Below, piece after piece: positions 6,236 to 53,786 of a stretch of DNA of 64,000 nt. Under the pieces are notes generated by a model that worked only from the letters and a program-made list of their open reading frames with translations, did not search any database and was not told the origin of the DNA. The stretch is taken from positions 21,926,001 through 21,990,000 of the forward strand of contig CP142453.1 of NCBI GenBank assembly GCA_038049695.1, in the 5' to 3' direction. The position numbers and the translations under genes were made by a program. This DNA comes from Cinnamomum chago. Taxonomy: Eukaryota; Streptophyta; Magnoliopsida; Laurales; Lauraceae. Position 1 is the stretch's first letter, and the number at the start of each line of letters is the position of its first letter.

Positions 6236-6532
6236 TGTTAACGCAAGTCCATTATAATATAAGTTTGGCCCATCCATGACCCATCTGTAAAGCCCATTAT
6301 GTTATAGACTTGTACAGCAATACATACTAAAATAGGAGATTTGATTGATTGATACTAGTCAGACTTGTACACCAATACATACTAAAATAGGAGATTTGAT
6401 AGATTGTAATTGTAGCCCAAATTGGGCATCTCTGATCTATAAATTACAATGGTGAATCTTCAAAGAGATAATCGAATACAATTCCATTCAGCCTTGTCTA
6501 TGAGTAATAATTCTTCTGGCTTATTCGTGACA
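6236..6532 (+). repeat. Copia 5' LTR
   Basis: Starts TGTTAACGCAAG and ends TTCGTGACA; 297 bp, the same length as the 3' copy. It contains an internal 55-bp tandem duplication beginning AGACTTGTACA at 6306 and 6361, present in both LTRs and therefore older than the insertion. Confidence 0.95.
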
Positions 6533-6545
6533 TGGTATCAGAGCC
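6533..6545 (+). other. Primer binding site, initiator tRNA-Met
   Basis: TGGTATCAGAGCC directly follows the 5' LTR and is complementary to the 3' end of plant initiator methionine tRNA, the usual copia primer. Confidence 0.95.
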
Positions 6546-7230
6546 TTCTGGACATGCCCTAGTGCTGTAGTTTCAGATCCTCCAAGCCATCTTCCACGTC
6601 TGGAATCCCTCCGATCATTCCCAATCATCCCAGATCAGGTGTGGCCCACCTGAAATCTTCTTCAACAACTCTGCAGGACCAGCCCATGTTGGTCGACTGC
6701 TATTGCTGGTATTTGTGGTGATTTTTCCGGAATTTTTTTCCCCATCGGAGGTAGGCCTTCTATCACAATTTGTGGAAATTCAATTTTCTCCCTCTGATTT
6801 CATCTCAGCCGTACAAAATCAAGGATCTTGATTGTTTTTGGCTGAAACTTCTTCCATCACTTGCGTAAATATTCTGTGCCTTCATCCCCGACCTCTGATC
6901 TGTCCTCTGATGATCTGGTGGGGCCCACGTGCATGAACTCACACTGACGAGAGGGTCGTCACTCGTCCGTCTCTTTTGGTGCAATTCTGTGCACTTTTCG
7001 ACTGCACTGTACATATTTGTGCAGATTCTTCATTCAATTGGTGCTCTGGTTCTTTGCATCTTTGTTTTCCGCAGTAGCAACCATCGGAGCTCCTCTCTAT
7101 CACTATTGACTGTTCTGGGAACAGTTCTAATCAAGATTTGTTTTGCCTAAATTTTCTTGCTGTTGCTGTTCACTTTATTTGTGCATTTTACTGTCAGCTG
7201 TCTATTACTGTTGTCATCTATGGGTTGAAA

Positions 7231-8275
7231 ATGGACAAGAATGAAATGCAGTTGATCAAATTCATTGGAAAGAACTATTCTACTTGGGCCTATCAATTTG
7301 AGCTATATCTGAAAGGCAAAAAATTATGGGGCCACATTTCTGGTTCTATGAAAAAACCATCGGAAAAAGATAAATTGGAAGATTTGGAAGATTGGGAAAC
7401 CAAAGAAGCATAAATTACGAGCTGGATGTTGGGCGCAGTGGAACCCCAATTTCTCCTACATCTTAAGCCCTATAAAACTGCTCAAGATATGTGGGGATAT
7501 CTGAAACGCATATATCACCAAGAGAATTCAGCCTGTCGGTTCCAATTGGAACATGACATTGCTCAATATTCTCAAGGACAGATGGTTGTCCAAGAGTATT
7601 ACTCCGGCTTCTTTTCTCTTTGGACTGAATACACGGATATTGCCTATGCCACTATCACCGGAGAAACTCTCTCTGGTATTCAGGAAGTTCATAAAATTAC
7701 TCAGAGAGATCAATTCTTAATGAAACTTCGGCCTGAATTTGAAAATGTTCGCTCCAATCTTATGAGTCGGCATCCATCTCCCTCTTTGGAGACATGTCTC
7801 AATGAAGTGCTTCGCGAAGAACAACGGATATTCACTCAGCATCAACTATCCCAACAATCATCCACTGGTCCCACTGAAGTTGCTTATGTAGCCAAAGGGA
7901 AACCCCCCAGATGCGACACTTTAACCCAGGATTTGAGCAAGATTCAATGCTTCACTTGTAAGGAGTATGGACATTATTCTTCTCAGTGCAGAAGAAAAGT
8001 TTGTAACTACTGTAAAGCTAGCGGACATATCATTTCTGAATGCAGGAAACGACCAGAAAATAGAAATTCGCGTGCTTATTCTGCCATTGCTTCTTCAGAT
8101 TCTCACTCTGTGGCACCTGCTTCTCCGTCTCCATCTATGTCTTCACATCAATTTGCACCCAACCCTCCTATCAACCCTGAAATGATTCAACAAATGATTC
8201 TCCAAGCATTCTCCTCCTTGGGCCTCTCAGGTAAAACCTCTCCATCTCCCTCTCAGGTAAAACCTCTCCATCTCC
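7231..8275 (+). pseudogene. Copia gag (broken)
   Basis: The reading starts at ATG 7231 (MDKNEMQLIKFIGKNYSTWA), giving a copia-type gag: N-terminal domain, then a CCHC knuckle region with CFTCKEYGHYSSQC and CNYCKASGHIISEC (near 7948-8042), then a Ser/Pro-rich tail. An in-frame TAA at 7411-7413 splits it. A 26-bp direct duplication (8224-8249 and 8250-8275) puts the downstream protease out of frame. Removing 26 bp restores the gag-pol frame arithmetically, so gag and pol were once one ORF, as usual for copia. Confidence 0.9.
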
Positions 8276-8282
8276 TTCCATA

Positions 8283-9560
8283 TGGTATTTTGATTCTAGA
8301 GCATCAAATCATATGACTTCCTCTTCCAGACTCATGTCTCATATTCAATCATATGATGGGAAACTCCAAGTTCAAACTGCAAATGGAGGTCATTTACCTA
8401 TCACTGCCATAGGAGATATTCCACACAAATTGCCTTTGAATCATGTTTTTCTTTCACCTGGCCTCTTTACAAATTTGTTATCTGTTGGATAACTCGTAGA
8501 TAATCATTGTAATGTGTCATTCTCTTCTTCTGGTTGTGTTGTACAGGATCAGGGGACGGGACAGGTGATCGCGAATGGGCCTAAGTGCGGCCGGTTGTTT
8601 CCGCTTAGTCTGTCTATACAACCTAGGGATGAATCTACTTCAGCTTTTTCATGTGCTTCAAAATAATGTGCATCTGTGGCACAAAAAATTAGGACATCCT
8701 AATTCGAACATATTGTTATCTTTGAAAAATTCTGGTTTGATTAATAAAATGCAGTTTTCTACTTCGGATGTGAATATTGATTGTTTTGTTTGCAAATTAG
8801 GAAAAAGTAAGGCCCTTCCATTTCCTGTGCATACCTCTTTATCCGAAAAATGTTTTGATTTGATTCATAGTGACGTTTGGGGTATAACACCAGTTATTTC
8901 TCATTCTCACTTTAAATACTGTCACATTCATCTATTATCATAGCAGATTCACTTGGGTTTATTTTTTAACGGCAAAATCAGAGGTGTTTGAGATTTTTAA
9001 AAAATTCCTGGCCTATGTTGAAACACAATTCTCCACTTGCATAAAGATTCTCTGATCTGATTCAGGTGGAGAATATGTGTCAAACAGATTTCAGGAATTT
9101 CTTCAACAAAAGGGGATTATCTCACAACGAACCTGTCCTCATACTCCACATCAAAATGACATTGCTGAGCGGAAGAATCGCCATTTACTTGACATGGTTC
9201 GTTGCCTGCTACTTGAATCCTCTGTTCCCCCTAGATTCTGGCCGGAAGCTCTCTCCACTTCCGCTCATCTTATTAATCGGCTTCCATCTTCCAAACTTCA
9301 AAATCAGTCCCCATATTTCTGTCTTTTTAACTCTCATCCTACATATACACATCTTCGTCCTTTCAGATGTGTTTGTTTTGTTCATCTTCCTCCTTCTGAA
9401 AGGACGAAATTGTCTGCGCAAGCTACCAGATGTGTTTTTCTTGGTTACGCAACTCATCAAAAAGGATTTGTTTGTTATGATCCATCTACCAAAAGAATTC
9501 GAGTTTCTCGACATGTTGTGTTTTTTGAAAATTTATATTTTTTTTCTCAAGCCCCTGATT
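8283..9560 (+). pseudogene. Copia protease and integrase (broken)
   Basis: The protease motif reads WYFDSRASNHM at 8283, with the glycine of the DSG catalytic triad changed to Arg. TAA at 8490 and a frame change before 8640 follow. The pre-integrase zinc region LWHKKLGHPNSNILL..CFVCKLGKSK starts near 8670. The integrase core shows a frame break near 8925 at its first catalytic Asp, a TGA near 9052 just before SDSGGEYVS, then the open part from 9077 with AERKNRHLL (catalytic Glu region), RFWPEALSTSAHLINRLPS and RCVFLGYATHQKGF. No active enzyme is possible. Confidence 0.9.
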
Positions 9561-9829
9561 CCTCCACTCCTATCACCATGACTAGATTACCACCTTTTTC
9601 ATCCGACACTTCATCTTCTGTTGAAAGGTTAAAACCTGGAATTGTATATCGGCGACGGACGGAACCACTCCCTGCTACAATACAACCCCTTCAAGAGACA
9701 CCTGATCCAACTCCCCTAGCCACTCCACCAGCCCTTACTATGATGCCCACTCTTCGACGCTCCACACGTGTATCTCGGCCTCCTGATAGATATGGGTATT
9801 CTCCTTCATCCTTTCTTGCCACTCTATCG

Positions 9830-11732
9830 TCTGTTAACATTCCCACTTCCTATTCTCAAGCTGTGAAGCATGAATGTTGGCGGAATGCTATGTCTGAGGA
9901 ATTAGAAGCTCTACAGAATAATCATACATGGGATGTGGTTACCTGCCCGCCTACAGTTCGACCTATTGGGTGTAAATGGGTTTATTCGGTCAAACTGAAA
10001 TTTGATGGCTCGCTAGACCGATACAAAGCTCGTCTGGTCGCTCTTGGTAATCGCCAAGAATATGGCATCGACTATGATGAAACATTTGCTCCGGTTGCAA
10101 AGATGACTATTGTCCGGATGATTATTGTCATTGCAGCATCTCAAGCTTGGCTCATTCTTCATTTAGATGTAAAGAATGCCTTTCTTCATGGTGATCTTAA
10201 AGAAGACATTTATATGCGCCTTCCTACCGGGTGTTCCTCTTCCAGTCGTTCAGATGTGGCTAAAACTTAGGCATTCCCTCTATGGGGTCTTAAACAGGCT
10301 CCTCGCGCTTGGTTTGAAAAATTTCGGGATGCCTTGCTTATGTTAGACTTCCAGCAAAGTCCGTATGATCCATTATTGTTTTTACATAAGTCTCCAAGTG
10401 GTATCACTATTCTTCTTGTTTATGTTGACGACATCATTATTACTGGGACGGATTCCAAAATGATATCGAAGCTTCAATCCTCATTGCATCAATCATTCCA
10501 TATGAAAGACTTGGGTCCCTTGACCTACTTCTTAGGTCTTGAAGTGCATCAAACAGAAAAAGGAATCATCTTGCACCAACACAAATATGCTCTAGACCTA
10601 ATTGAACTAGCAGGACTCCAGCAATCAACTCCAGTTGATACTCCTCTTGAAGTGAATTTGAAGCTCTCAAAGGATAGCGGGGATCTCCTTCCCGATGCCA
10701 TGCTCTATCGGCAATTGGTTGGTAGCTTGATCTACTTAACTCATACCCGCCCCGACATTTCCTTTGCTGTTAACATGGTCAGCCAGTATATGACTCAACC
10801 ACGGCATCTTCATTTGGCGGCTGTTCGACGAATTATTCGTTACCTACTTGGTACGACTACTCGTGGTCTATTTTTCCCTGCCGGCTACCCCCCAAATCTC
10901 ATTGCTTTCTCCGATGCTGATTGGGCGGGTTGTACTTGTAAGAAACCATATACCAACCTAAAAGCTTAAGCTGATAGGTGGAAGGCCCATACAGGTATAT
11001 TAAGATATGACAAGCCTATTACTTAGGCGATGTGGGATGTGGGACTTCCCAACACTCCCCCTCACGTGCAGGCCCAACAGATTTCATGGATGGGCCTGTC
11101 ACGTGGGCTACACAAGAACGACGGCCACGTGGGCCATGCAAGAACAACGGGATCGGAACCCGCTTTGATACCATGTAAGAAACCATATACCAACCTAAAA
11201 GCTTAAGCTGATAGGTGGAAGGCCCATACAGGTATATTAAGACATGACAAGCCTATTACTTAGGCGATGTGGGATGTGGGACTTCCCAACAGTACTGACA
11301 CCCGTCGGTCCACAATTGGGTGGTGTATGTATCTTGGCGATGCGTTGATATCCTGGAAATGTAAGAAACAAGATAAGGTTTCAAGATCTTCCAAGGAAGC
11401 CGAATATCGGGCCATGTCTGTGCGCTGAAATCCTTTGGCTTCGTGGGCTATTCTCAGATCTCGGTTTTCCACAAAGCTCACCTACGCCTCTCCATGCTGA
11501 CGACACTAGTACTATTCGTATTACAGAAAATCCAGTTTTTCATGAACAGACCAAGCATATTGAAGTTGATTGCCATTTCATTCGTGATGAATATCTACGG
11601 GACGTCATTTCCCTACCGTTCATTTCCTCTGGCTTCCAGATTGCGGACATCTTCACGAAGGGACTTCCTCGCCCACGTCATCAATTCTTATCCGGCAAAT
11701 TGATGCTTACTGATTCCCCCGCATCAATTTGA
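9830..11732 (+). pseudogene. Copia RT and RNase H (broken, carries TRIM)
   Basis: The RT begins near 9850 with WRNAMSEELEALQNNHTWD and includes GCKWVYSVKLKFDGS, YDETFAPVAK, HLDVKNAFLHGDL, a local double frameshift with TAG at 10268, GLKQAPRAWF and the catalytic YVDD at 10421-10432. RNase H follows (LTHTRPDISFAV, IAFSDADWAGC) until the TRIM at 10937. It resumes at 11297 with [16 protein letters not shown] and [10 protein letters not shown], then reads on with frame changes to KHIEVDCHFIRDE, IADIFTKGLP and a stop at 11730-11732. Confidence 0.92.
10937..11291 (-). mobile_element. TRIM (terminal-repeat retrotransposon in miniature)
   Basis: 355 bp. Two 118-bp direct terminal repeats (10937-11054 and 11174-11291) differ at one base (T/C). 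On the minus strand each starts TGTTGGGAAGTCCC and ends TTTCTTACA. The PBS TGGTATCAAAGC (11173-11162, minus) directly follows the 5' repeat, and a purine tract GTGAGGGGGAG (11065-11055, minus) precedes the 3' repeat. The target duplication GTACT lies at 10932-10936 and 11292-11296. It carries no coding sequence, so it must have been moved by proteins from another element. It splits the copia RNase H ORF cleanly. Confidence 0.96.
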
Positions 11733-11739
11733 GGGGGGG
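11729..11739 (+). other. Copia polypurine tract
   Basis: TTGAGGGGGGG immediately upstream of the 3' LTR; it overlaps the pol stop codon. Confidence 0.9.
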
Positions 11740-12036
11740 TGTTAACGCAAGTCCATTATAATATAAGTTTGGCCCATCCATGACCCATCTGCAAAGCCCA
11801 TTATGTTATAGACTTGTACAGCAATACATACTAAAATAGGAGATTTGATTGATTGATACTAGTCAGACTTGTACACCAATACATACTAAAATAGGAGATT
11901 TGATAGATTGTAATTGTAGCCCAAATTGGGCATCTCTGATCTATAAATTACAATGGTGAATCCTCAAGGAGATCATCGAATACAATTCCATTCAGCCTTG
12001 TCTATGAGTAATAGTTCTTCTGGCTTATTTGTGACA
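11740..12036 (+). repeat. Copia 3' LTR
   Basis: 297 bp, starts TGTTAACGCAAG and ends TTTGTGACA, followed by the second GTAGT. Near-identical to the 5' LTR; differences sit mainly in the last 100 bp. Confidence 0.95.
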
Positions 12037-43749: not shown

Positions 43750-43761
43750 AAGATCAATTTT
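43750..43761 (+). repeat. Left 12-bp direct repeat bounding the pararetrovirus locus
   Basis: AAGATCAATTTT, repeated in the same orientation at 53775-53786 on the other side of about 10 kb of pararetroviral sequence. It may be a target duplication or repair microhomology. Confidence 0.7.
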
Positions 43762-43789
43762 TGAAACGTTACTTAACTTCTCTTAGTCT

Positions 43790-44278
43790 AACTTGGAAAC
43801 TCTTAGTCTAACTTCTCTAATTTTACTTCTGCCTAGACAAGAGGGTTGGCAGTCCCTTTTATAGACAAATTTACAAATTATTGCGGACTTGAAGATGCTT
43901 GAAGTCCGTGAATTGTTGAGGCTGCTTGAGGGGTTGTATCTGTATTATTGAGGCGGCTTCTTCGAAGTTGCTTGAAGGGGCTAAACCTGAATTATTGTGG
44001 TGGCTTGATGATGACTCCGGATGCGAAAGCATTTGAAATCCGGAACTCCGGGCTTGATTCATTGCATTGAAAGTGACGTGGTACTATTTGGTACTATTTG
44101 CATAGTACTTATATTATTGGATGAACAGTACTGCAGTTGAAAATCGTCGAATTCATTTATGAATAGTGACTGCTGCAATAGTATCAAATAGTAGCTGCAT
44201 AGTGAATTTTTTAAAGTGACGTCTGTAGAATTGATTTCGCAAAGTCGCTTTTGAGCTTGAGCTTTTTGACCAAATTGA
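43790..44278 (-). promoter_or_regulatory. Pararetroviral control region, copy 1 (outward, leftward)
   Basis: Closely matches 53278-53739 in inverted orientation. On the minus strand it holds ACGTCA bZIP-type boxes (in GACGTCACTTT and CACGTCACTTTC), short repeats such as CAAATAGTACCAAATAGTACC, and the TATA box TATAAAAGGG at 43863-43854. Caulimovirid pregenomic promoters are built this way. It would drive transcription out of the locus towards the RBOH 3' side. Confidence 0.8.
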
Positions 44279-44383
44279 AGGCTTTTGTGCTTCACAGAGC
44301 CTACTGGATTCAGGCAGCTGGATGAGCTTGATGGAGGCATTTGTGGGCTTTATTGTAGTAGCGTAGCATGTCTAGATGGAGGT

Positions 44384-45556
44384 CTAGAATCCGTCTTCGC
44401 CAGGGGATTGAGTAGCATCAGAGTCTTCATTGACGGAGGAGGCTGCAGATGGAACTGGTTCATGATGCAGTTGGAAAGGCTTTTTCTTGAGAGATTCAAT
44501 TTCTTTATGGAGAGCATGAATATGACTGATTAAATATTTTTGAGAATCCATAAAATTGTTGTTTGGATGGGAGGTTGCTATTGAAGGCACAGGCTTTGCT
44601 ATTGGGGCAGTTTTGAAGGGTCCTGCTGCAGGATTTTTGATGACTTCAGTAACTGCTGCTTTGAAGGATTTATAGGGATCAATTGTGGGTAATGGGGAAA
44701 AATGTTGGACATTAGAGGAAGAAGGAGAAGTTTGTTTATTAAGAATTGGTAAAACGTCAAATTTGTCCCAACGTTTTACAAAGGTCCTTCGAAATAGGAA
44801 TAGGGGATTTGTGGTTTTTGAATAGTCCCATTTGAGGATCCAGGGGATACCATGAGTGAGGGAATAGGCTAAAAAGAGGTATGAAGGTTCGTTGGATTCA
44901 AAAGAGGCTTTATTGGAAGTAAAAGTTTTTAAATGGCTAGATAGGGAATCCGATAGGATGGATAAAGATGGGCCAAAGAGTGACCACCAATTTATCCAAA
45001 ACCATTTTGGAACTTGAAGGTTCCGGGATTTTTGGAAGCTGAGAAACCAGAAATGAGATTGCTTAGAATTTTGGCAAAGCAAAACAAATTCCCAAGCACT
45101 CATATAATCCCAGTAATTGTAAGGCCATTGTTTTTGGTTGGGGCTTTGCACCATTCTTGTTGTAGACCAATTGTTCTGCCATTCCTGCGGTGAGAGGACA
45201 TTGAGAATTTTGAGTTTCGAGAAGGCGATTTCGCCGTCTTTTTCAGCATGAGTAATAAGTGCGCTATTGGATTGTTCAAGTATTGCTTCATAAAAATTGA
45301 TAGTAAGAGATGACAATTTGGGGGAGAAATGCATATCAGGAAGGAATATTTTAGGGGCTATTTGATCAACAGGAAGTCCTATAAGAACATCATCTAGAAG
45401 AGTAAGTTGGCTTTCAGCATTGAGAAGATATTGGGAGGAGGAAACATTCTTTTTTGTTGGAGGATTGAGCAAAGGGGAGAATTGATTGGAGACACTAAAT
45501 TCACTTAGTGCATCAGGCTGTTTGGCTTTATTTTTGGATCTTTTGGACATTTTCAT
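44384..45556 (-). CDS. Pararetroviral ORF of unknown function (390 codons, intact)
   Basis: Uninterrupted. Its ATG overlaps the end of the RT-RNase H frame by 29 nt (stop at 45530-45528), an arrangement that suggests a downstream ORF translated by leaky or coupled initiation. Visible traits: a Lys-rich start, a Trp-rich middle (twelve Trp between residues 126 and 243, with YWDYMSAWEF and KWFWINWW), and a Ser/Pro-rich, acidic C-terminus. I do not recognise a functional domain. Proteins of this look occur as the second ORF of some endogenous caulimovirids. Its intactness contrasts with the broken RT frame upstream. Confidence 0.75.
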   Translation of the reverse strand: MKMSKRSKNKAKQPDALSEFSVSNQFSPLLNPPTKKNVSSSQYLLNAESQLTLLDDVLIGLPVDQIAPKIFLPDMHFSPKLSSLTINFYEAILEQSNSALITHAEKDGEIAFSKLKILNVLSPQEWQNNWSTTRMVQSPNQKQWPYNYWDYMSAWEFVLLCQNSKQSHFWFLSFQKSRNLQVPKWFWINWWSLFGPSLSILSDSLSSHLKTFTSNKASFESNEPSYLFLAYSLTHGIPWILKWDYSKTTNPLFLFRRTFVKRWDKFDVLPILNKQTSPSSSNVQHFSPLPTIDPYKSFKAAVTEVIKNPAAGPFKTAPIAKPVPSIATSHPNNNFMDSQKYLISHIHALHKEIESLKKKPFQLHHEPVPSAASSVNEDSDATQSPGEDGF

Positions 45557-47929
45557 ACTGAGGCTTTTCTCGTCCCTGTAGAAATTCGCGAAAGAGAAAG
45601 TCAGGAAGAGAATTAGAGGTTCCTTTTATAAATTCAATTTTGAAATCAAATATTGAAAGCAAAGCTTGCCATTGAGCAAAGATTTGTTTTGATGCAAGAT
45701 TTTTAACATCTTTTTCTAAAACTTCTTTTGTTGGTTTGCAATCAATGCGTAAAAGAAATGGTTTATTTAAAATATCACTTTGAAATTTGAGGATGGAAGA
45801 GACTATGGTAAGAATTTCTTTTTTAATTGTAGAATAATTTTGTTGGGTTGGATTCCATGAACTGGATGTGAATTGAACGATTTGTTCTTTATTTCCATTT
45901 TGCTGGAGAAGGATACCACCATATCCTTGTTCAGAAGCATCAGTTTGAATTATTTTAAAAAGATCAGGATTGGCTATATTTAAGCATGGGAGAATTCTGA
46001 CTTTTTCTTTTAATTTTTGAACAGCTAAAGTGTGTCCTTTAGTCCATTCTTCTTAATTATCTTTAGAAAGTCGTTTTTGAAGAAGGGTTCTTTCGGTTGC
46101 TAAATTTTGAAAGAAATTTGATACATAATTCAAGCAACCTAAGAATCGTTGAAGCTGAGCAGTATCCTTGATTTCATCAGGAAATTTGCCAGCAAATTGA
46201 ATGACACGGTTAATTGGAGTAATGGTTTGATTTTCAATTTTATATCCGAGAAAGCGGATAGAGGTTTGAAAGAGAATTATTTTTCTTTGAGAGAGGACAA
46301 GACCATTATATTTTATTGTGTTATAGAAGATAGAAAGATGTTTCCAATGTTGTTCGATGTTCTTAGAAAAGATTAGAATATCATCGATGTAAACAATGGA
46401 AAAGTCTTTATATGGGTGGAATATTTCATCCATGATTCTTTGGAATTCAGAAGGAGCATTTTTTAAGCCAAACGGCATAACATTCCATTCGAAGTGTCCG
46501 AAGGGAACTGTGAATGCTGTTTTATAACGATCTTCTTCACAGAGTTGGATTTGCCAGAATCCGGATTTTAGATCAAATTTAGAGAAGATATTGGCATTGC
46601 AGAGGCGACTGATTAAGTCTTATTTATTAGGAATGGGGTATCTTATTGATTGAAGTACTTCATTGAGGGGTTTATAATTGATTACAAGTTTTGGAGAACC
46701 TCGTTCGAGTTCTGCTGCATTTTCTACGTAGAAGGCGGCACAACTCCAAGGAGATTGACATTTTCGAATAAGATTTTTTAAGAGTAAATCTTTGATTTCA
46801 TTATCACAGAGATCAAGGAGGCGATGATTCATTTGAGCTGGTCTAACTTTTGTAGGAATGGATTTTTCATTAAAAATTTTATCATATGGGAGAGAGACTT
46901 GATGAGATTTTCTATGCCAAAATGCGGAAGGTATATCAGCACAACAAGTGGCAAACAACTTCTTTTGGAAATGTAATAATTGAGATTGGAAATAAGGTTT
47001 ATTGAGTTTTTCTTGAAGATTGAGGAGTCTAATGTCATTTTTGAGACTATTTATATGAGCGGTCTGATAAGAGATTAGATTTTTGAGGGTGGAAACTTTT
47101 CCTATTTGGGGAGGCCGAATAAAATTAAAAAGAATAGATTTATGGTCTATCTTTGTCTTGAGACCGATGGAGGTAACTTTGAAAGGCTGAATTTGTAATA
47201 TAAATGGAGTTCCTAGTATTATGTCATGTTGGAGATTTTTAACAATGACAAAAGATGTTGGAATACATTTATTATTTTTACACACATGTGCTAGTGGTAG
47301 TTTATAGTTAATAGTACAAGTGGCACCATTAGCTGTTGTTATGGAAGCTTTAGTATGGAGGCAGAATTTTGTAGGGATTAGGCCTTTTTTTGATACAATT
47401 GATATCAGCGCCTGAATCTATTAAAGCAATTGATTTTTGGATTAGATTTTTGGTTTTTAGTGTTATATGAGTATACCATTTTTGGAAGCTATATTTGGTT
47501 ATAGAGTTGGCTTCATTATGTGAAGGAGATTCTTTATATTGTGCCAATTGATTTTGGAGTTTGTTAATTTCTGTTTTTGAGTCATTTATTTCCTTTTGAA
47601 GAATAAAGATTGAAATAAGTTCTTCTTCTATTACGTTTTCTGTTTTTGAGTCATTTATTTCCTTTTGAAGAATAGAGATTGAAATAGGTTCTTCTTCTAT
47701 TACGTTTGAATTTTCTTTAATTATGTAGATGTTAGAATCGGACATAGAAGAATTAGTATGATCCTTTTGAGGAGTCAGATGAGCGAGTTGCGGTGGTGGC
47801 AAGGGATTTATGATGGCAAAGTCTTGGGTAGGCTTTGTTGATTCTTTTTTAAGTGGTATAGTATAAGGACATTGATTAGATTGGTGATTGATATTTGAGT
47901 CACGATGTAACATCATGATCTGTTGGTGT
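45528..47929 (-). pseudogene. Pararetroviral protease-RT-RNase H (broken)
   Basis: The minus strand starts near ATG 47916. Its first ~140 codons are linker with a Gln/Asn/Lys-rich coiled-coil-like stretch that contains an in-frame 23-codon duplication. The protease site DSGAD is at 47418-47404, followed by a frameshift at a homopolymer (47385-47391). The flap-like ILGTPFILQIQPF motif is conserved. The RT spans about 46900-46100 with FDLKSGFWQI, FGLKNAPSEFQ and catalytic YIDD (46391-46380). TAA codons fall at 46622-46620 and 46055-46053. The RNase H follows (TDASEQGYGG near 45930) and the frame stops at 45528. No integrase. The upstream movement and capsid region is missing: the part begins at the head-to-head junction. 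Confidence 0.9.
47571..47708 (-). repeat. 69-bp in-frame tandem duplication in protease linker
   Basis: Copies at 47571-47639 and 47640-47708 encode 23 residues twice (VIEEExISIxILQKEINDSK), with a few substitutions. It adds a heptad-like coiled-coil unit and keeps the frame. Confidence 0.9.
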
Positions 47930-47933
47930 AATC

Positions 47934-47946
47934 TGGTATTAGAGCC
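47934..47946 (+). other. Pararetroviral primer binding site (tRNA-Met)
   Basis: TGGTATTAGAGCC, one mismatch (C to T) from the initiator tRNA-Met complement used by caulimovirids. It marks position 1 of the linear viral map and lies only a few bases from the head-to-head junction. Confidence 0.85.
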
Positions 47947-48066
47947 AAGTGCTCAAGCCTTACTGCCCCCAGTGCCTACTCCCTCTGTAAGCTTTGTTTA
48001 GTTTCTCCCTTGTATTGTTAAACAGTCATGTTACTCTGTCTTGTAAACAATCCTGTTTATATGTTC

Positions 48067-48113
<47 letters not shown>

Positions 48114-48354
48114 TATGTTTTGTAAAACTCATGCATTATCTATTATGTTGCTCGTCTGCTTTCTGAGTATTTAAATTCTTAGTACTGCTTTGAATAGTAG
48201 TTGTATATTAAGAAGGAAGAAGTTAGGTTCGAGGCCTCTTGTCGCGCCAAGGTTGATTGTCCGTTGAGCTAGCGAGCATTAGGACGTGTTCCCTCATTTG
48301 GGGTTGACAGGCCACTAGTAACTTCCAACTTGATATTTCAATTATTGTTTAAAA
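47947..48354 (+). other. Viral leader with (TA)n tract
   Basis: About 400 bp between the primer site and the movement protein ATG. Contains 18 AT units at 48075-48110, several short upstream ATGs, and a GC-richer block (about 48225-48310) before the start codon. TA repeats are known to accompany endogenous florendovirus loci. Confidence 0.7.
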
Positions 48355-50403
48355 ATGTCTAAGTTATTTAATTCTTTGAAAAAAGATTTTTTGTCTAAAT
48401 CTTCTTCTTCTTCTTCAAACTCTTCTTCATCCTCATCATCTGCATCTAGTATTAGTTTAAATATTAGTAAAATGTCAATTAAAAATTTGGAAGAGATTAC
48501 CTACGGGAATCTCGAACAATCTATCAATAATTGGACTATTCCAACAGTCCTAATAAAAGAAATTTATAATCATGGTTCATTCAAACTAGACACTGATTAT
48601 ATAATCAAAACCGTCGAAGAGACGAAATCAATTGTCGATAAAGAGGAAAACCTTTCTCTTATCGCAAAAGAAACAATAGAAAAATTCAGCCAACAATATA
48701 AATATCTCCATATTAGACTTGTACAAGTTGCTATTAAATCTCTCACTCGAACTGGTTTAAACACTTCTTGTCTATCCTATGTCCGAGACCAAAGACATGT
48801 GAAGTTCAAAGACTCACTTATAGGTCTCGTCGAAGCTAGTCTTCACAATAGCCCTGCCTTCTTCAATCGCTTCCCCAATTTCTCAATAAGCCTCTCTGAT
48901 CCAGGTGCTCATCAAGCATGCACACTTGGTATCCATACCAAAGGTTTCAACATGAAGCCACAATCTGAAAATATAGCCATCATATATCGAGTTTATTTCA
49001 AAGCAATGAACTCAATCATGCCTGATATAGCCTATAATAATCAATTAAAAGGAATAACAACTTTATTTCTTACTGATTTCAAAAATAAAATCACAATTCC
49101 AAAGATAATTACTTGGGAACAAGTCAATCTCTCTGGCGAATGGGATCTCCAAGATGCTCAATCTTCAATCCTGCCAATCAATGATGATTTAGAAATTATT
49201 ACTGAATATCCCAATGGTAGAGTTGCTATCAAACTCAATAATGTTAAATCAACTCTTCCTAGGCCAATAACTAGGCATTCTACCTCATCAATTCCCTCTC
49301 AAATAAACCCAACAGAAGTTGAACAACATAGACCATCTTCTGTTTCTCAATATGACTATGTTCGCTCTAAGCTACCAAACGTCATGATACCTCCTCCATC
49401 AAATATTTGTTATCCTCAAACTACAAATTACAGAAGTGGATCTCATCATAATGAAAATTATGATCCTACTGAATCATATCGCCCCATTGCTTCTTATTTC
49501 AGTCCTCATATAGGAATGATCTCAGTCTCAAATACCATATCTGACGAAATTTCTAATGATTCAGAAAATAGTCAAGAGATACCCTTTCAAATCAATAATC
49601 AATTCTTAATTGATAATATGAAAAACCATCCCCTTCGCTTTTCTTTCTTTAGAAATTTCAATAAAGAAGAACAAGCTCAATTAAAAGCCCAATGGTTTAG
49701 CCATATGCAATTAGTCAAAACTAATATCCCTTTCTTTGATTGGTTCCATTATCACGTACCCCAAGAACCAATTGCCTCAAATAATATCATGATGTTACAT
49801 CAACAATTAAATAAACAAAAATGGGAAACCACTTCTGGTGAAGAGATTGCCCAATCTTTACCCCCTTTTCGCGCAATTAAATTCAAAGAAACTGTAGCAA
49901 CTCCGCTTAAAACAGTCTCTATTTTCAAAGATGACAAGCCTGCTACCTCCAAAGATATTTCTCATATCATTGAACAAAACAATTATACCAATACCTTTTT
50001 ACATTCTATCGCAACAAACTTGACACCTACTCCCCAGCCTATTTCCCATATACATCCCTCACCGACTCTCCCTACCAAACAGTTATTTCTTCCAGCACAA
50101 ACAATACAAACCAATCTCCCTCAAATACAAAGACCCTCCTCTTCTATGTCAACTGAGTTCCTAACAGAACTTTTGAATATAATCAAATTATCTAATGAAA
50201 TAGACCCAAAAGGCAAAAAACCAAACCTATCAATGATAACAGAAAATAATCTCCCTTTGGAAGACTCCGACGACTCTGCTAATGATGAAGTAGATGCTGA
50301 TCCACTTCCTCAAATAAATCGATATATTTTCCAACGTAGTTCTACAAAACAGTACTATCGTCGTCCCTCTCCAGTTGATCTTCAATTTGAAGAAATCTCT
50401 TAA
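48355..50403 (+). CDS. Pararetroviral movement protein (30K superfamily), intact
   Basis: 682 codons without a stop. Residues 14-32 are almost pure Ser. Residues about 110-235 form the 30K-type movement core that opens plasmodesmata for cell-to-cell spread: hydrophobic beta-strand text (HIRLVQVAIKSL), a charged RDQR turn, LHNSPAFFNRFPNFSISL and the conserved SDPG at 181-184. The C-terminal ~280 residues are Pro/Ser/Gln-rich linker with DISHIIEQNNYTN-like text seen in related polyproteins. It ends TAA at 50401-50403, directly followed by the ATG of the capsid ORF. Start chosen as the first in-frame ATG after the leader. Confidence 0.85.
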   Translation: MSKLFNSLKKDFLSKSSSSSSNSSSSSSSASSISLNISKMSIKNLEEITYGNLEQSINNWTIPTVLIKEIYNHGSFKLDTDYIIKTVEETKSIVDKEENLSLIAKETIEKFSQQYKYLHIRLVQVAIKSLTRTGLNTSCLSYVRDQRHVKFKDSLIGLVEASLHNSPAFFNRFPNFSISLSDPGAHQACTLGIHTKGFNMKPQSENIAIIYRVYFKAMNSIMPDIAYNNQLKGITTLFLTDFKNKITIPKIITWEQVNLSGEWDLQDAQSSILPINDDLEIITEYPNGRVAIKLNNVKSTLPRPITRHSTSSIPSQINPTEVEQHRPSSVSQYDYVRSKLPNVMIPPPSNICYPQTTNYRSGSHHNENYDPTESYRPIASYFSPHIGMISVSNTISDEISNDSENSQEIPFQINNQFLIDNMKNHPLRFSFFRNFNKEEQAQLKAQWFSHMQLVKTNIPFFDWFHYHVPQEPIASNNIMMLHQQLNKQKWETTSGEEIAQSLPPFRAIKFKETVATPLKTVSIFKDDKPATSKDISHIIEQNNYTNTFLHSIATNLTPTPQPISHIHPSPTLPTKQLFLPAQTIQTNLPQIQRPSSSMSTEFLTELLNIIKLSNEIDPKGKKPNLSMITENNLPLEDSDDSANDEVDADPLPQINRYIFQRSSTKQYYRRPSPVDLQFEEIS

Positions 50404-51540
50404 ATGCCCAAAATCCATTTTGAAGGGAATGTCCTCTATGAATGGAACATCGACGGACTTTCCGAATACCAAATACTCAATGTTATGCAACATATGATTG
50501 TCTATTGCAATGCCTGCTATATTCATCAATGGGCACAAGAAAACACTGTTCTCGCTATCACCTCTGGTTTTACCGGACAACTTCACGGATGGTGGAACGA
50601 TTATTTGACCGAAATACAACGCGAAGAAATAAAACAATCCATCCAACGCGATGAACATGGGCAGCCAATCCTTAATTCTAAAGGAGAAACACAAGGCAAA
50701 CAAGTCCTTGCTCTAATAACCAATATCATCCATCATTTTCTTGGAAAACTTGGCGATATTTCTGAGAAAAACAAAGAACTATTAATCAATCTTAAATGCC
50801 ATACTTTAACAGACTTTCAATGGTATAAAGATATATATCTTTCCAAACTATTTCGCATTGACAACTGCGATAGCTCCTTTTGGAAAGAAAAATTCATCTC
50901 TAGTCTTCCAACGCTGTTCGCCGAAAAGGTTCGTAATTGCTTACGAGACAAAGGCAATAGAAACCTCAATTACCACCATTACACTTACGGCGAATTAATC
51001 CAAACCATTAACAAAGTTGGCATCAGTATTTGTACGGACCTCAAACTTAAATCCCAAATGAAAAGAGAAAGGTCCAATAACCAAAAAGAATTAGGCGATT
51101 TTTGCTACCCATTTGGTTATGACCCAATTATAAGTCCTTCTCGAAGAAAGACTTCTTCTAGAACCAAACACAATTCTAATAATGCTTCCCTTCCTACCCA
51201 AAGAAAGCCTCGTAATTTCAGAAATCATAAATTCAAAAATCAACAACCTAAAACTAATGAACCTCTTCCCAAAAATAATGATCCCAATCAACGCTGCTAC
51301 AAATGTAACAAACCTGGTCACTTTCCAAATAAATGCTTTGTCCAAACTACCAAAAAGAAAATTAATAATATTAAAAATAAATCAAACTCCAATAAAACAA
51401 GTGACAATTCTGACCAAGAACATATTTGTCATTCTTGTCAAGAATCATTCTCCGAATATGAATCTTCTTCTACACCATCAATAAATATGCTTTCTGCCAA
51501 TGAGCAGTTAATTCTTGAAATGATTCAAACCATTCAATAG
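50404..51540 (+). CDS. Pararetroviral capsid protein with CCHC knuckle, intact
   Basis: 378 codons, ATG abutting the movement protein stop (TAAATG). Residues 1-210 are the coat core (YIHQWAQE, GQLHGWWNDYL, FLGKLGDISEKNKELLINLK). About 215-290 is Lys/Arg/Asn-rich, suited to nucleic acid binding. The zinc knuckle CYKCNKPGHFPNKC lies at 298-311 and a second Cys pair (CHSC) at 342-345. It ends with TAG; the same frame stays open for about 70 more codons towards the protease region. That suggests a former or suppressible polyprotein, or loss of continuity. The abutting start fits termination-reinitiation. Confidence 0.85.
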   Translation: MPKIHFEGNVLYEWNIDGLSEYQILNVMQHMIVYCNACYIHQWAQENTVLAITSGFTGQLHGWWNDYLTEIQREEIKQSIQRDEHGQPILNSKGETQGKQVLALITNIIHHFLGKLGDISEKNKELLINLKCHTLTDFQWYKDIYLSKLFRIDNCDSSFWKEKFISSLPTLFAEKVRNCLRDKGNRNLNYHHYTYGELIQTINKVGISICTDLKLKSQMKRERSNNQKELGDFCYPFGYDPIISPSRRKTSSRTKHNSNNASLPTQRKPRNFRNHKFKNQQPKTNEPLPKNNDPNQRCYKCNKPGHFPNKCFVQTTKKKINNIKNKSNSNKTSDNSDQEHICHSCQESFSEYESSSTPSINMLSANEQLILEMIQTIQ

Positions 51541-52217
51541 CCCCTTACAAAAAATGAATTTTTTTATAAATTAATATCTCAAAATATCAGAAGTAAACAG
51601 GTTAAACAAATTCCTTCTACTACACCTGTTTTCACTATGCAGCAAGACCGACTGCAAGCTCAAACCTCTTCTACTCCTTCTCATAATCACAATAACGAGT
51701 TCTCTTCTTTGAAAGAAGAAGTCTCGACTCTAAACAAATTGTCAATACTTTAAAAATTCAAGTTGATCTCTTGGAAAAATCTATCCAAGATTCAACTACT
51801 GCCAATATTGAAAATTTTTGTGGATCCATCCAAAATCATCATTTTCAAAAATGGTATACTATAATCATTTTACAAATTCAAGAATTTTCCTATGAATTTA
51901 CAGCTCTGATTGATTTAGGAGCTGACATGAACTGCCTCAAAGAAGATCTCATCCCCCTATGTCTCCTCGAATATAAACCTTCTTCAATTACCACTGCTAA
52001 TAGAAATTCTTGTCCCATCCAATATAGGCTGACTACTGCCATCATTTTCAAAGATAATATCGGTATTCCCACTAATTTCATTGTTGTATCAAATCTACAA
52101 CATAATTTAGTGCTTGGAACACCCTTCATAACACAAATCCAGCCCTTTTTGGTCACCGCAAATGGCCTACATACCACTATAAATGACAAAGAGGTCATTT
52201 TTCAATTTAATGCATAA
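51541..52217 (+). pseudogene. Pararetroviral protease domain without RT (decayed)
   Basis: It continues the capsid frame after TAG, then shifts frame near 51730. The domain from about 51840 matches the protease of the minus-strand part (FQKWYT, ALIDLGADMNCL, SNLQHNLVLGTPFITQIQPF). The catalytic triad reads D-L-G in place of D-S-G, which should abolish activity. The frame closes with a stop at 52215-52217, right where the minus-strand part goes on into RT. About 80 bp of AT-rich spacer follow, then a new ORF. RT and RNase H are absent. Confidence 0.8.
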
Positions 52218-52299
52218 CTTCATTCATATGCATAATTCCATTCATATTTTCTCAAAAATATTTAAATAATATATCTCTTTTTCCTTCTCTCAACAACTA

Positions 52300-53490
52300 A
52301 TGTCTTCTGACAAAGGCAAGCTGCCAATTATATCCAAACAGCCTTCTACCATTTAAGAGTTGTTTCCCCTCCATATTCCATTTCCTTCTTCCAATCCACT
52401 CCCTTCTGTCGAGTCTCAAGCTCTTCTTGACAGAATATGGAGCACCCATCTCTCTGGCCAAAGAAATTCTCGTATGAGAAAAAATATTTCTGATTTGGCC
52501 ATACATCTCAAATCGTTAGAATCACAAATCCAATTACTTGAACAACAATGTGCATCGTCATCCAATAAAAGAATTGCAAAACAATTCCGACAACAGCTCC
52601 TGTAAAAGGTTGATAACCTCCTTCCAGATGATTTAGCTGTGCGAATTAGAGCTCAAACTCTTTCTTGCCAGCTCAAAGAAAGCTTTATGTCTAAAGCACA
52701 ATATCTCAGTTGGGCCACCGGCTTTCCAAAAATGTTCCTTCCAATAGAAGAATTCAATATCTCTTATATTGAACAAGGGCCGGTTCAACGATTCATTCTT
52801 GATCGGAATGATTCTACAATGCTCAGCCAACTGCCAGCCATTGTTAAATACACTCTCAACTGCCTCAGCATCACCAATCAGCATCTTCTTGTCACAATCT
52901 CCTCCTCCCTCGGAGAATGAGAAGAAATTCGCTTTTATCAACCACATCAATTATGGACCCTCACTAATATCGAAGACGGTGATCTATTCTGCAGGAAGCT
53001 CAGTGCTTGTCCTCCTGACTATGGCACTTATGATCATCTAGCCGAATGATTCGAAACTTCCGACGCTGCAACTCTCGATTAAAGCATCGAACGCCTATAA
53101 TCCTATAATGCTCAAGCAGATCAAATTCAGCGCTTCATTTCTCTCAAAAGGCACCTTGAATTCGCCAGCACTTATAAAGGAGTTTGGAGTGATGGTCGAA
53201 GAATTATCTGTATTGACGACGACCTCGCCGATCAAACACATGTGTTCTATGATCCCATCCGATCTGGACAAAAAGCTCAATTTGGTCAAAAAGCTCAAGG
53301 TCGAAAGCGACTCTGCGAAATCAATTCTACAGACGTCACTTTCAAAAATTCACTATGCAGCCACTATTTGACACTATTGCAGCAGTCACTATTCATCAAT
53401 AAATTCGATGATTTTCAACTGCAGTACTGTTCATTCAATAATATATTTCGGTTATTATTCAAAAAGTACTATGCAAATAGTACCAAATAG
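52300..53490 (+). pseudogene. Pararetroviral third ORF, six stops, unknown function
   Basis: One frame runs from ATG 52300 to TAG 53490 (about 396 codons) with no frameshift, but with stops at 52354, 52603, 52918, 53047, 53080 and 53098. A coiled-coil-like stretch lies near 52500-52600 (LKSLESQIQLLEQQC). No known domain is recognised, and it does not resemble the 390-codon ORF of the minus-strand part although it holds the same place on the map. Its last ~70 codons run into the shared control region and stay open there; the same frame is open in the minus-strand copy too (44340-44059). Confidence 0.7.
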
Positions 53491-53739
53491 TGTCACGTCA
53501 CTTTCAATGCAATAAATCAAGCCCGAAGTTCCGAATTTCTAATGCTTTCACATCCAGAATCATCATCAAGCCGCCTCAATAATACAAATACAGCCCCCCT
53601 CAAGCAGCCTCAACAATTCATGGACTTCAAGTATCTTCAAGTCCGCAATAATTTGTAAATTTGTCTATAAAAGGGACTGCCAGCCCTCTTGTCTAGGCAG
53701 AAGTAAAATTAGAGAAGTTAGACTAAGAGTTTCCAAGTT
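53278..53739 (+). promoter_or_regulatory. Pararetroviral control region, copy 2 (outward, rightward)
   Basis: Matches 44278-43790 (minus) closely; it includes GACGTCACTTT and CACGTCACTTTC boxes and TATAAAAGGG at 53666-53675, followed by a conserved segment CTCTTGTCTAGGCAGAAG. Differences are scattered substitutions and a few indels. It would drive transcription towards 54.9 kb, antisense to the small membrane protein gene. Confidence 0.8.
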
Positions 53740-53774
53740 CTCTTCAGTCTAAGAAAATAATTATTAAATGGCCA

Positions 53775-53786
53775 AAGATCAATTTT
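53775..53786 (+). repeat. Right 12-bp direct repeat bounding the pararetrovirus locus
   Basis: AAGATCAATTTT, same orientation as the copy at 43750-43761. Confidence 0.7.

Follow-up and report, generated by a model that had tools for sequence, protein, structure and literature searches.

Two endogenous pararetroviral parts at one locus of Cinnamomum chago are probably the components of a divided viral genome

Introduction

Can a reverse-transcribing virus divide its genes between two molecules? The question is raised by a locus in the window, a 64,000-nucleotide (nt) stretch of the Cinnamomum chago genome (C3:21926001-21990000; assembly of 1.06 Gb in 14 contigs). At 43762-53774 the window holds two endogenous pararetroviral parts, head to head on opposite strands. 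The left part (component A, minus strand) has protease, reverse transcriptase (RT), RNase H, a further open reading frame (ORF2) and a control region ending at 43790, and the right part (component B, plus strand) has a tRNA-Met primer-binding site, a leader, movement protein (MP), capsid protein (CP), protease, a different last gene (here the B gene) and a control region. A preliminary description of this DNA suggested that these are two components of one divided pararetrovirus, with truncated and rearranged copies of two related monopartite viruses as the alternative.

Many plant RNA viruses have divided genomes. For reverse-transcribing viruses such genomes have been claimed from reconstructed fossils only, with no extant example known (PMC4241990, PMC10377300). 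Bipartite florendoviruses were proposed in 2014, namely VvinBV and VvinDV (Vitis), OsatBV (Oryza) and SbicV (Sorghum), with sizes of 5.5-6.9 kb, an intergenic region (>90% nt identity) and an MP gene (>87%) common to A and B, and compound A+B insertions (PMC4241990). A review adds reported evidence from sugar beet by Schmidt 2021 (PMC10377300). We conclude that the present locus is very probably a compound fossil left by a pararetrovirus whose genome was in two parts, and four sets of observations lead to this reading: the gene content of the parts, their pattern of identity, further copies in the genome and the spacing of those copies.

Results

Gene content of the two components

The division of genes in the preliminary description was largely borne out. 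Component A has RT and RNase H by Pfam matches, an intact 390-codon ORF2, and a protease recognised mainly through that of component B (51% amino acid (aa) identity, 90 residues; Pfam alone gave only E 0.063). Component B has MP, CP and a protease ending at a stop, all by Pfam matches (Table 1), followed by the B gene, which in the window is broken by stops. The active-site motif is DSG in the A protease and DLG in the B protease. The zinc knuckle of the B capsid protein matched PF00098 only below its cut-off, and a stop at 50401-50403 interrupts what in relatives is one reading frame for MP and CP. RNase H gave no match in the B parts of the window and two further loci (L015, L019; L numbers denote loci in the same genome), and integrase gave no Pfam match in the scanned pieces of A and B. 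As in Caulimoviridae, MP, CP, aspartic protease, RT and RNase H are present across A and B (Pfam), together with a tRNA-Met primer-binding site, which was scored against a consensus and is perfect in L010, L012, L014 and L019. Assignment to the genus Florendovirus is probable.

The 390-aa ORF lies where a florendovirus ORF2 (45-58 kDa, after ORF1) is expected and is named by position only. It gave 3 database matches only, a dN/dS of 0.26 against virus 2 (a second virus, described below) and an AlphaFold2 model too poor for use (mean pLDDT 33). One Cinnamomum protein annotated as 'eukaryotic translation initiation factor-like' (P0004) contains the viral ORF2 in its C-terminal part, by gene fusion or misannotation.

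The B gene probably encodes a real protein under selection, because an intact copy of 381 aa exists in virus 2 and the genes of the two viruses are 63% identical, with a dN/dS of 0.16 over 218 codons. The window piece has one outside relative (P0027, 73% identical over 70% of the piece), and the AlphaFold2 model of the B protein was likewise too poor for use (mean pLDDT 45). The B gene has no Pfam or PDB match and offers a protein family whose function can be sought. We considered whether it is an ORF2 homologue and found no sign of this (hhalign probability 0.2 of 100; BLASTP E 0.17); local shuffle tests gave z values of 0.9, 2.6 and -1.0, and the value of 2.6, obtained with the Cinnamomum protein, was equalled or exceeded by 6 of 300 shuffles.

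Control regions and movement protein genes common to both components

A common control region at both ends had been described, and the two copies are indeed identical in 417 of 450 ungapped columns (92.7%), and the alignment contains gaps of 2, 19 and 45 nt; with gaps counted, BLASTN gave 82% over 516 columns. Protease is the only enzyme gene present in both parts, and its two copies agree at 159 of 270 nt (58.9%; 51.1% aa) with a dS of 2.6, so that synonymous sites are saturated. Mere divergence of two viruses would be expected to give the reverse contrast. Some process has preserved the likeness of the control regions as the genes moved apart. A bacterial-type promoter scan of the control region was uninformative for a plant virus.

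The MP gene is also common to both components. In L009 and L014, which are A copies of the window virus (virus 1), MP is 92-94% identical in nt to that of window B up to 49768 (93.5% over 1067 nt for L009), and there an in-frame join leads to the linker and protease, without CP. The divided gene sets of the preliminary description stand, but its confinement of MP to the right part does not. In virus 2 the MP genes of A and B are 98.2% identical over 225 codons, and the control regions of its two components, compared over 749 nt, are 99.1% (L019/L021) and 98.3% (L020/L021) identical. Between the two viruses, seven compared stretches gave a single match (70.9% over 230 nt, at the end of the B gene).

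Within virus 1, the B control region of L015 is 84.5% identical to that of window A and 83.8% to that of window B, and the control sequence next to ORF2 is, in L011 and L013 respectively, 83.6 and 85.9% identical to window B and 75.0 and 74.2% to window A, over spans that partly differ. Virus-1 control regions thus do not appear to group cleanly by component.

Further copies of both components and a second virus with the same split

Genome searches gave at least 106 matches for ORF2 (the best of 298), at least 111 for CP (109 of 1108 candidates scored) and 108 for the B protein. Twelve loci, ten around virus-1-like ORF2 matches and two from virus 2, were fetched and mapped with the window protein pieces. 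Seven of the A copies read retain MP upstream of RT, and all seven lack CP (L009, L014, two in L020, L024, L026 and a shortened one in L019). These copies show that window A is truncated at its 5' end inside the A-specific join, and that absence of CP is the normal state of A. A short match between the start of the left part and the MP gene had been taken as a sign of left truncation; the truncation is real, but the missing CP does not come from it.

Further copies of the right part in the same order and without RT, which the preliminary description had called for, were found in L015, in L011 (B tail) and, for virus 2, in L019, L022 and L025. The CP, protease and B-gene pieces of L015 have 81-96% aa identity to the window and its MP fragment 74%, and L015 and L011 are further compound A+B loci. 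Among the matches listed, five of ten virus-1 CP loci (≥83% identity) have a virus-1 ORF2 within 15 kb (the window, L011, L013, L014 and L015). A third, more distant relative occurs in L012, L016 and L017, with ORF2 at 62-69% and a control region at 80-86% identity (short pieces in L012 and L016).

Virus 2 accounts for most of the genome matches listed, with ORF2 at about 38-46% and CP mostly at 44-52% identity, and many of its frames are open. It is split in the same way. Its A copies (two in L020, L024, L026 and the shortened L019) carry MP, RT, RNase H and ORF2 without CP, most of RT and RNase H being gone in L019, and no protease match was found in these copies. Its B copies (L019, L022, L025) carry the CP side, protease and then the B gene, without RT. 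For the best 76 of about 98 virus-2 CP matches, a B gene follows within 1.3 kb in 60, at 869-873 nt in 57, and 16 have no near B gene.

Spacing of copies and the search for an undivided genome

From distances in the window we estimate that a genome in one piece would have about 2.2 kb between CP and ORF2. The 21 same-strand CP-then-ORF2 pairs closer than 9 kb among the matches listed have gaps of 1649 nt and then of 3735 nt upwards, with none in between. The four shortest pairs, which were read, are B-A joins and none is a parent genome: in L022 the protease and part of the B gene are joined to mid-RNase H, in L024 and L026 MP-RT-RNase H starts after a cut-off B part, and in L025 the protease continues into the B gene. 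The remaining 17 pairs lie at 4.7-7.8 kb, and about 6.6 kb is expected where an A unit comes directly after a B unit. Neither a right part continuing through RT nor both last ORFs in one genome, which had been named in advance as signs of simple deletion, was found by this test, in which the four shortest of the 21 pairs were read.

Copies of the same component recur at regular distances. ORF2-ORF2 spacing (one strand, no CP between, <9 kb) is 5615-5798 nt in 16 of 22 pairs, with 5739-5740 nt in four; CP-CP spacing (no ORF2 between) is 6343 nt in 6 of 23 pairs, 5000 nt in five and 5657 nt in two; and B genes are 6343 nt apart in 7 of 27 pairs. Because the A and B arrays have distinct unit lengths, these head-to-tail arrays suggest two separate circles. 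At C6:13690981-13717114, six CP matches follow each other at exact 5000-nt steps, each with a B gene after it, which could be a shortened B array (a deletion form) or an assembly effect. Both components occur in 33 of 72 clusters.

Proposed mechanism and alternative explanations

Components A and B would each have been a circle, A with MP, protease, RT, RNase H and ORF2, and B with MP, CP, protease and its own last gene, both with a near-identical control region holding the promoter and the tRNA-Met primer site. The host would transcribe each circle from the common promoter; RT from A would copy both RNAs, CP from B would package both, and MP could come from either, so that replication and packaging would act in trans. 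Recombination or template switching at the common block would keep the control regions alike. A fragment of A would then have become linked, head to head, to an almost complete B unit through a short homology, and repair of a single chromosome break would have taken up both together between the two copies of the 12-bp repeat. Such a joint capture may be proposed because the A/B junction (8 of 9 nt) and the flanking repeat fit it, and the same mechanism has been proposed for florendoviruses (PMC4241990). The copies elsewhere and the same split in virus 2 support the divided genome first suggested for this locus. A more specific version, that of an obligate two-part lineage, we hold to be somewhat favoured: the split would be older than the two virus species, the capsid circle would have gained or kept its own gene, the RT circle of one species would have lost its protease and depend in trans on the other circle for enzyme maturation, and recombination would keep the control block alike.

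Several points weigh against a two-part genome. All evidence comes from integrated copies rather than from circles, virions or transcripts. With gaps counted, virus-1 A control regions (L009, L014, window) are 83.6-85.1% identical to each other and 76.5-82.0% to window B, which speaks of uneven homogenisation. The proteases do not group by component, since that of virus-1 A is 55.6% identical in aa to that of virus-2 B, and those of the two B components share only 43.2%. B spacing is not uniform (6343, 5657 and 5000 nt all recur), the arrays may have arisen by amplification of chromosomal segments or during assembly, some of them perhaps being copies of one another, and 39 of the 72 clusters have one component only. 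As only the best candidates were scored (109 of 1108 for CP, 106 of 298 for ORF2), a more distant single-genome virus may exist in this plant.

Both parts could instead be defective copies that arose by deletion from one single-genome virus, either in the virus itself or once it had integrated. The in-frame join after MP by which A lacks CP is deletion-like, and promoter and primer site are retained in the copies, as in defective genomes. Nevertheless, the identical split in the diverged virus 2, the purifying selection on a B gene that, across the loci read, is confined to the B side, and the lack of CP-then-ORF2 at single-genome spacing among the best 111 CP and 106 ORF2 matches make this origin very unlikely. 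Alternatively, A and B could be dependent replicons that need a third, unseen helper virus, which Geering and colleagues could not discount for their bipartite florendoviruses (PMC4241990). We regard this as very unlikely, as A and B jointly hold MP, CP, protease, RT, RNase H and two control regions, and no known replication gene is missing. That truncated copies of two related single-genome viruses met here by chance would suit protease proteins only 51% identical but is extremely improbable, since simple divergence does not give 93% non-coding identity beside saturated synonymous sites, half of the virus-1 CP loci have ORF2 nearby, and L009, L011, L013, L014 and L015 argue against a control-region conversion private to this locus.

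Relation to known systems

Like bipartite florendoviruses, the virus described here, which we favour as two-part, has an A component without CP but with RT, RNase H and ORF2, and a B component with MP, CP and protease but without RT. The sizes, taken from copy spacing alone, fall within 5.5-6.9 kb, with the 5000-nt array outside this range. The identities also compare well with those of bipartite florendoviruses, at 92.7% ungapped (82% gapped) for the control region and 93.5% for MP, and at 98-99% and 98.2% in virus 2. There are differences, however. In the Vitis-type B polyprotein a C-terminal extension is homologous to ORF2, whereas the last B gene here stands as an ORF of its own, without detectable kinship to ORF2; Vitis-type B lacks only the N-terminal part of RNase H and keeps the C-terminal part, whereas B here has no RNase H match at all; and the virus-2 A copies read have no protease match. 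The host lineage also differs. Substantial divergence of B parts was noted with CAULIFINDER (PMC9719215), and florendoviruses are on record in magnoliids (PMC9794742).

Glycine max and G. soja polyproteins (P0007-P0014) have MP, DUF7588, DUF7746 and coat domains in the order of component B, but with 29-40% BLASTP identity over part or most of the query and with MP and CP in one frame. Bipartite begomoviruses have a near-identical common region on two circles with different genes and replicate by a single-stranded rolling circle. They are unrelated, and the common block here extends over an MP gene. IMG/VR scans with MP, ORF2, the RT piece and CP found no relatives.

Searches of the literature for Lauraceae Caulimoviridae, Cinnamomum pararetroviruses and bipartite endogenous caulimovirids, which mostly did not extend to subscription papers, found no bipartite case in Lauraceae, and in the main text of a 2026 survey with four Lauraceae genomes the word bipartite is absent (PMC13308828). 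The two-part idea and the layout are already known; new are the Lauraceae host, a B gene without detectable ORF2 kinship and a virus-2 RT component without detectable protease. The evidence is also independent of reconstruction, in that each half forms separate arrays, the control block is common within each virus, and two diverged viruses are split alike. As many frames of virus 2 are open, the split may be young enough for a search for episomal DNA in wild relatives.

Edges of the insertion and neighbouring features

A 12-bp direct repeat, AAGATCAATTTT, encloses the insertion, so that 43762 and 53774 are the positions just inside its two copies. Of 1500 shuffled pairs, 2 had a match of at least 12, as did 2 of 2915 random real pairs; both the repeat and the flank length of 100 nt were picked post hoc. 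Window B begins some 10 nt ahead of the primer site and stops about 56 nt before it would reach that site again, and in the native copies L010 and L014 the primer site lies about 70 nt from the shared end. Window B therefore appears to be a nearly whole unit opened near the primer site, and window A is cut within the MP region. The A/B junction was compared with native A in L009 and with the native DNA that precedes the primer site in L010 and L014.

Table 1. Features of the compound locus by window position.
Feature	Position	Strand	Basis
12-bp direct repeat, left copy (probable target-site duplication)	43750-43761	.	AAGATCAATTTT
28-nt filler, repeat to A end	43762-43789	.	Unlike native viral continuation in L009, L015
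A control region with TATA box	43790-44286 (497 nt)	-	Identity to 53271-53739
A ORF2, 390 aa, intact	44384-45556	-	Open reading frame; 61% to Cinnamomum micranthum protein
A RNase H	45531-46052	-	PF17919 E 1e-24; PF17917 E 4e-21
A protease C-terminal part and RT, single frame with in-frame stop	46056-47417	-	PF00078 E 9.8e-35 for RT
A last MP scrap, linker, protease N-terminal part	47353-47924	-	Alignment to L009, L014
A/B junction	47920-47933	.	Near-identical 9-nt stretch (8/9), by-eye comparison
B 5' end: tRNA-Met primer-binding site and leader	47925-48354	+	Primer site at 47934, one mismatch
B MP ORF	48355-50403	+	PF01107 E 1.5e-18; PF24496
B CP ORF with zinc-knuckle motif	50404-51540	+	PF24925 E 2.6e-24; PF22909 E 4.9e-10
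B protease, ending at stop after 52214	51696-52217	+	PF00077 E 8e-5
B last gene, broken by in-frame stops	52357-53270	+	Virus-2 copy read is 381 aa, intact
B control region with TATA box	53271-53739 (469 nt)	+	Identity to 43790-44286
Native B continuation toward primer site	53740-53753	+	Identical 14 letters in L015
Filler or non-assigned DNA before right repeat	53754-53774	.	Comparison with native copies
12-bp direct repeat, right copy	53775-53786	.	AAGATCAATTTT

Three readings of these edges were given up. After native L009, L010 and L014 had been read, the 14 nt at 47920-47933 were no longer taken as filler, nor the 16-bp match to MP (47919 / 49786) as a templated patch; nor is the primer site the exact end of both parts, as had at first been supposed, since native copies continue about 70 nt past the shared end. 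The 16-bp match is longer than in all 60 shuffles (longest 13) and sits within MP, where A and B diverge from each other. The filler at 43762-43789 contains a 10-nt copy of neighbouring viral sequence, a short repeated viral motif at the insertion end that perhaps reflects fold-back repair. In L011, two primer-site regions are joined tail to tail (1290-1520). The A linker has a 69-bp duplication (47568-47705), and the B leader contains (TA)18 (48075-48110), which may inflate its fold score (47934-48354; better than 100 of 100 shuffles, z -3.3).

A host gene for a respiratory burst NADPH oxidase (RBOH) runs from 32298 to about 40400 on the plus strand (PF08414; ferric reductase match just below its cut-off), and motifs that we take to be the C-terminal ones of NADPH oxidases were found in it. 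Insertion inside this gene was rejected, as the gene apparently ends near 40.4 kb and the viral insertion begins about 3.4 kb downstream. A Copia-type long terminal repeat (LTR) retrotransposon at 6236-12036 has LTRs of 297 bp (98% identical), an exact primer site at 6533, a 5-bp flanking repeat identified by eye, and gag and RVT_2 matches. An RT relic at 2460-2754 on the minus strand has 42-52% aa identity to the left RT piece.

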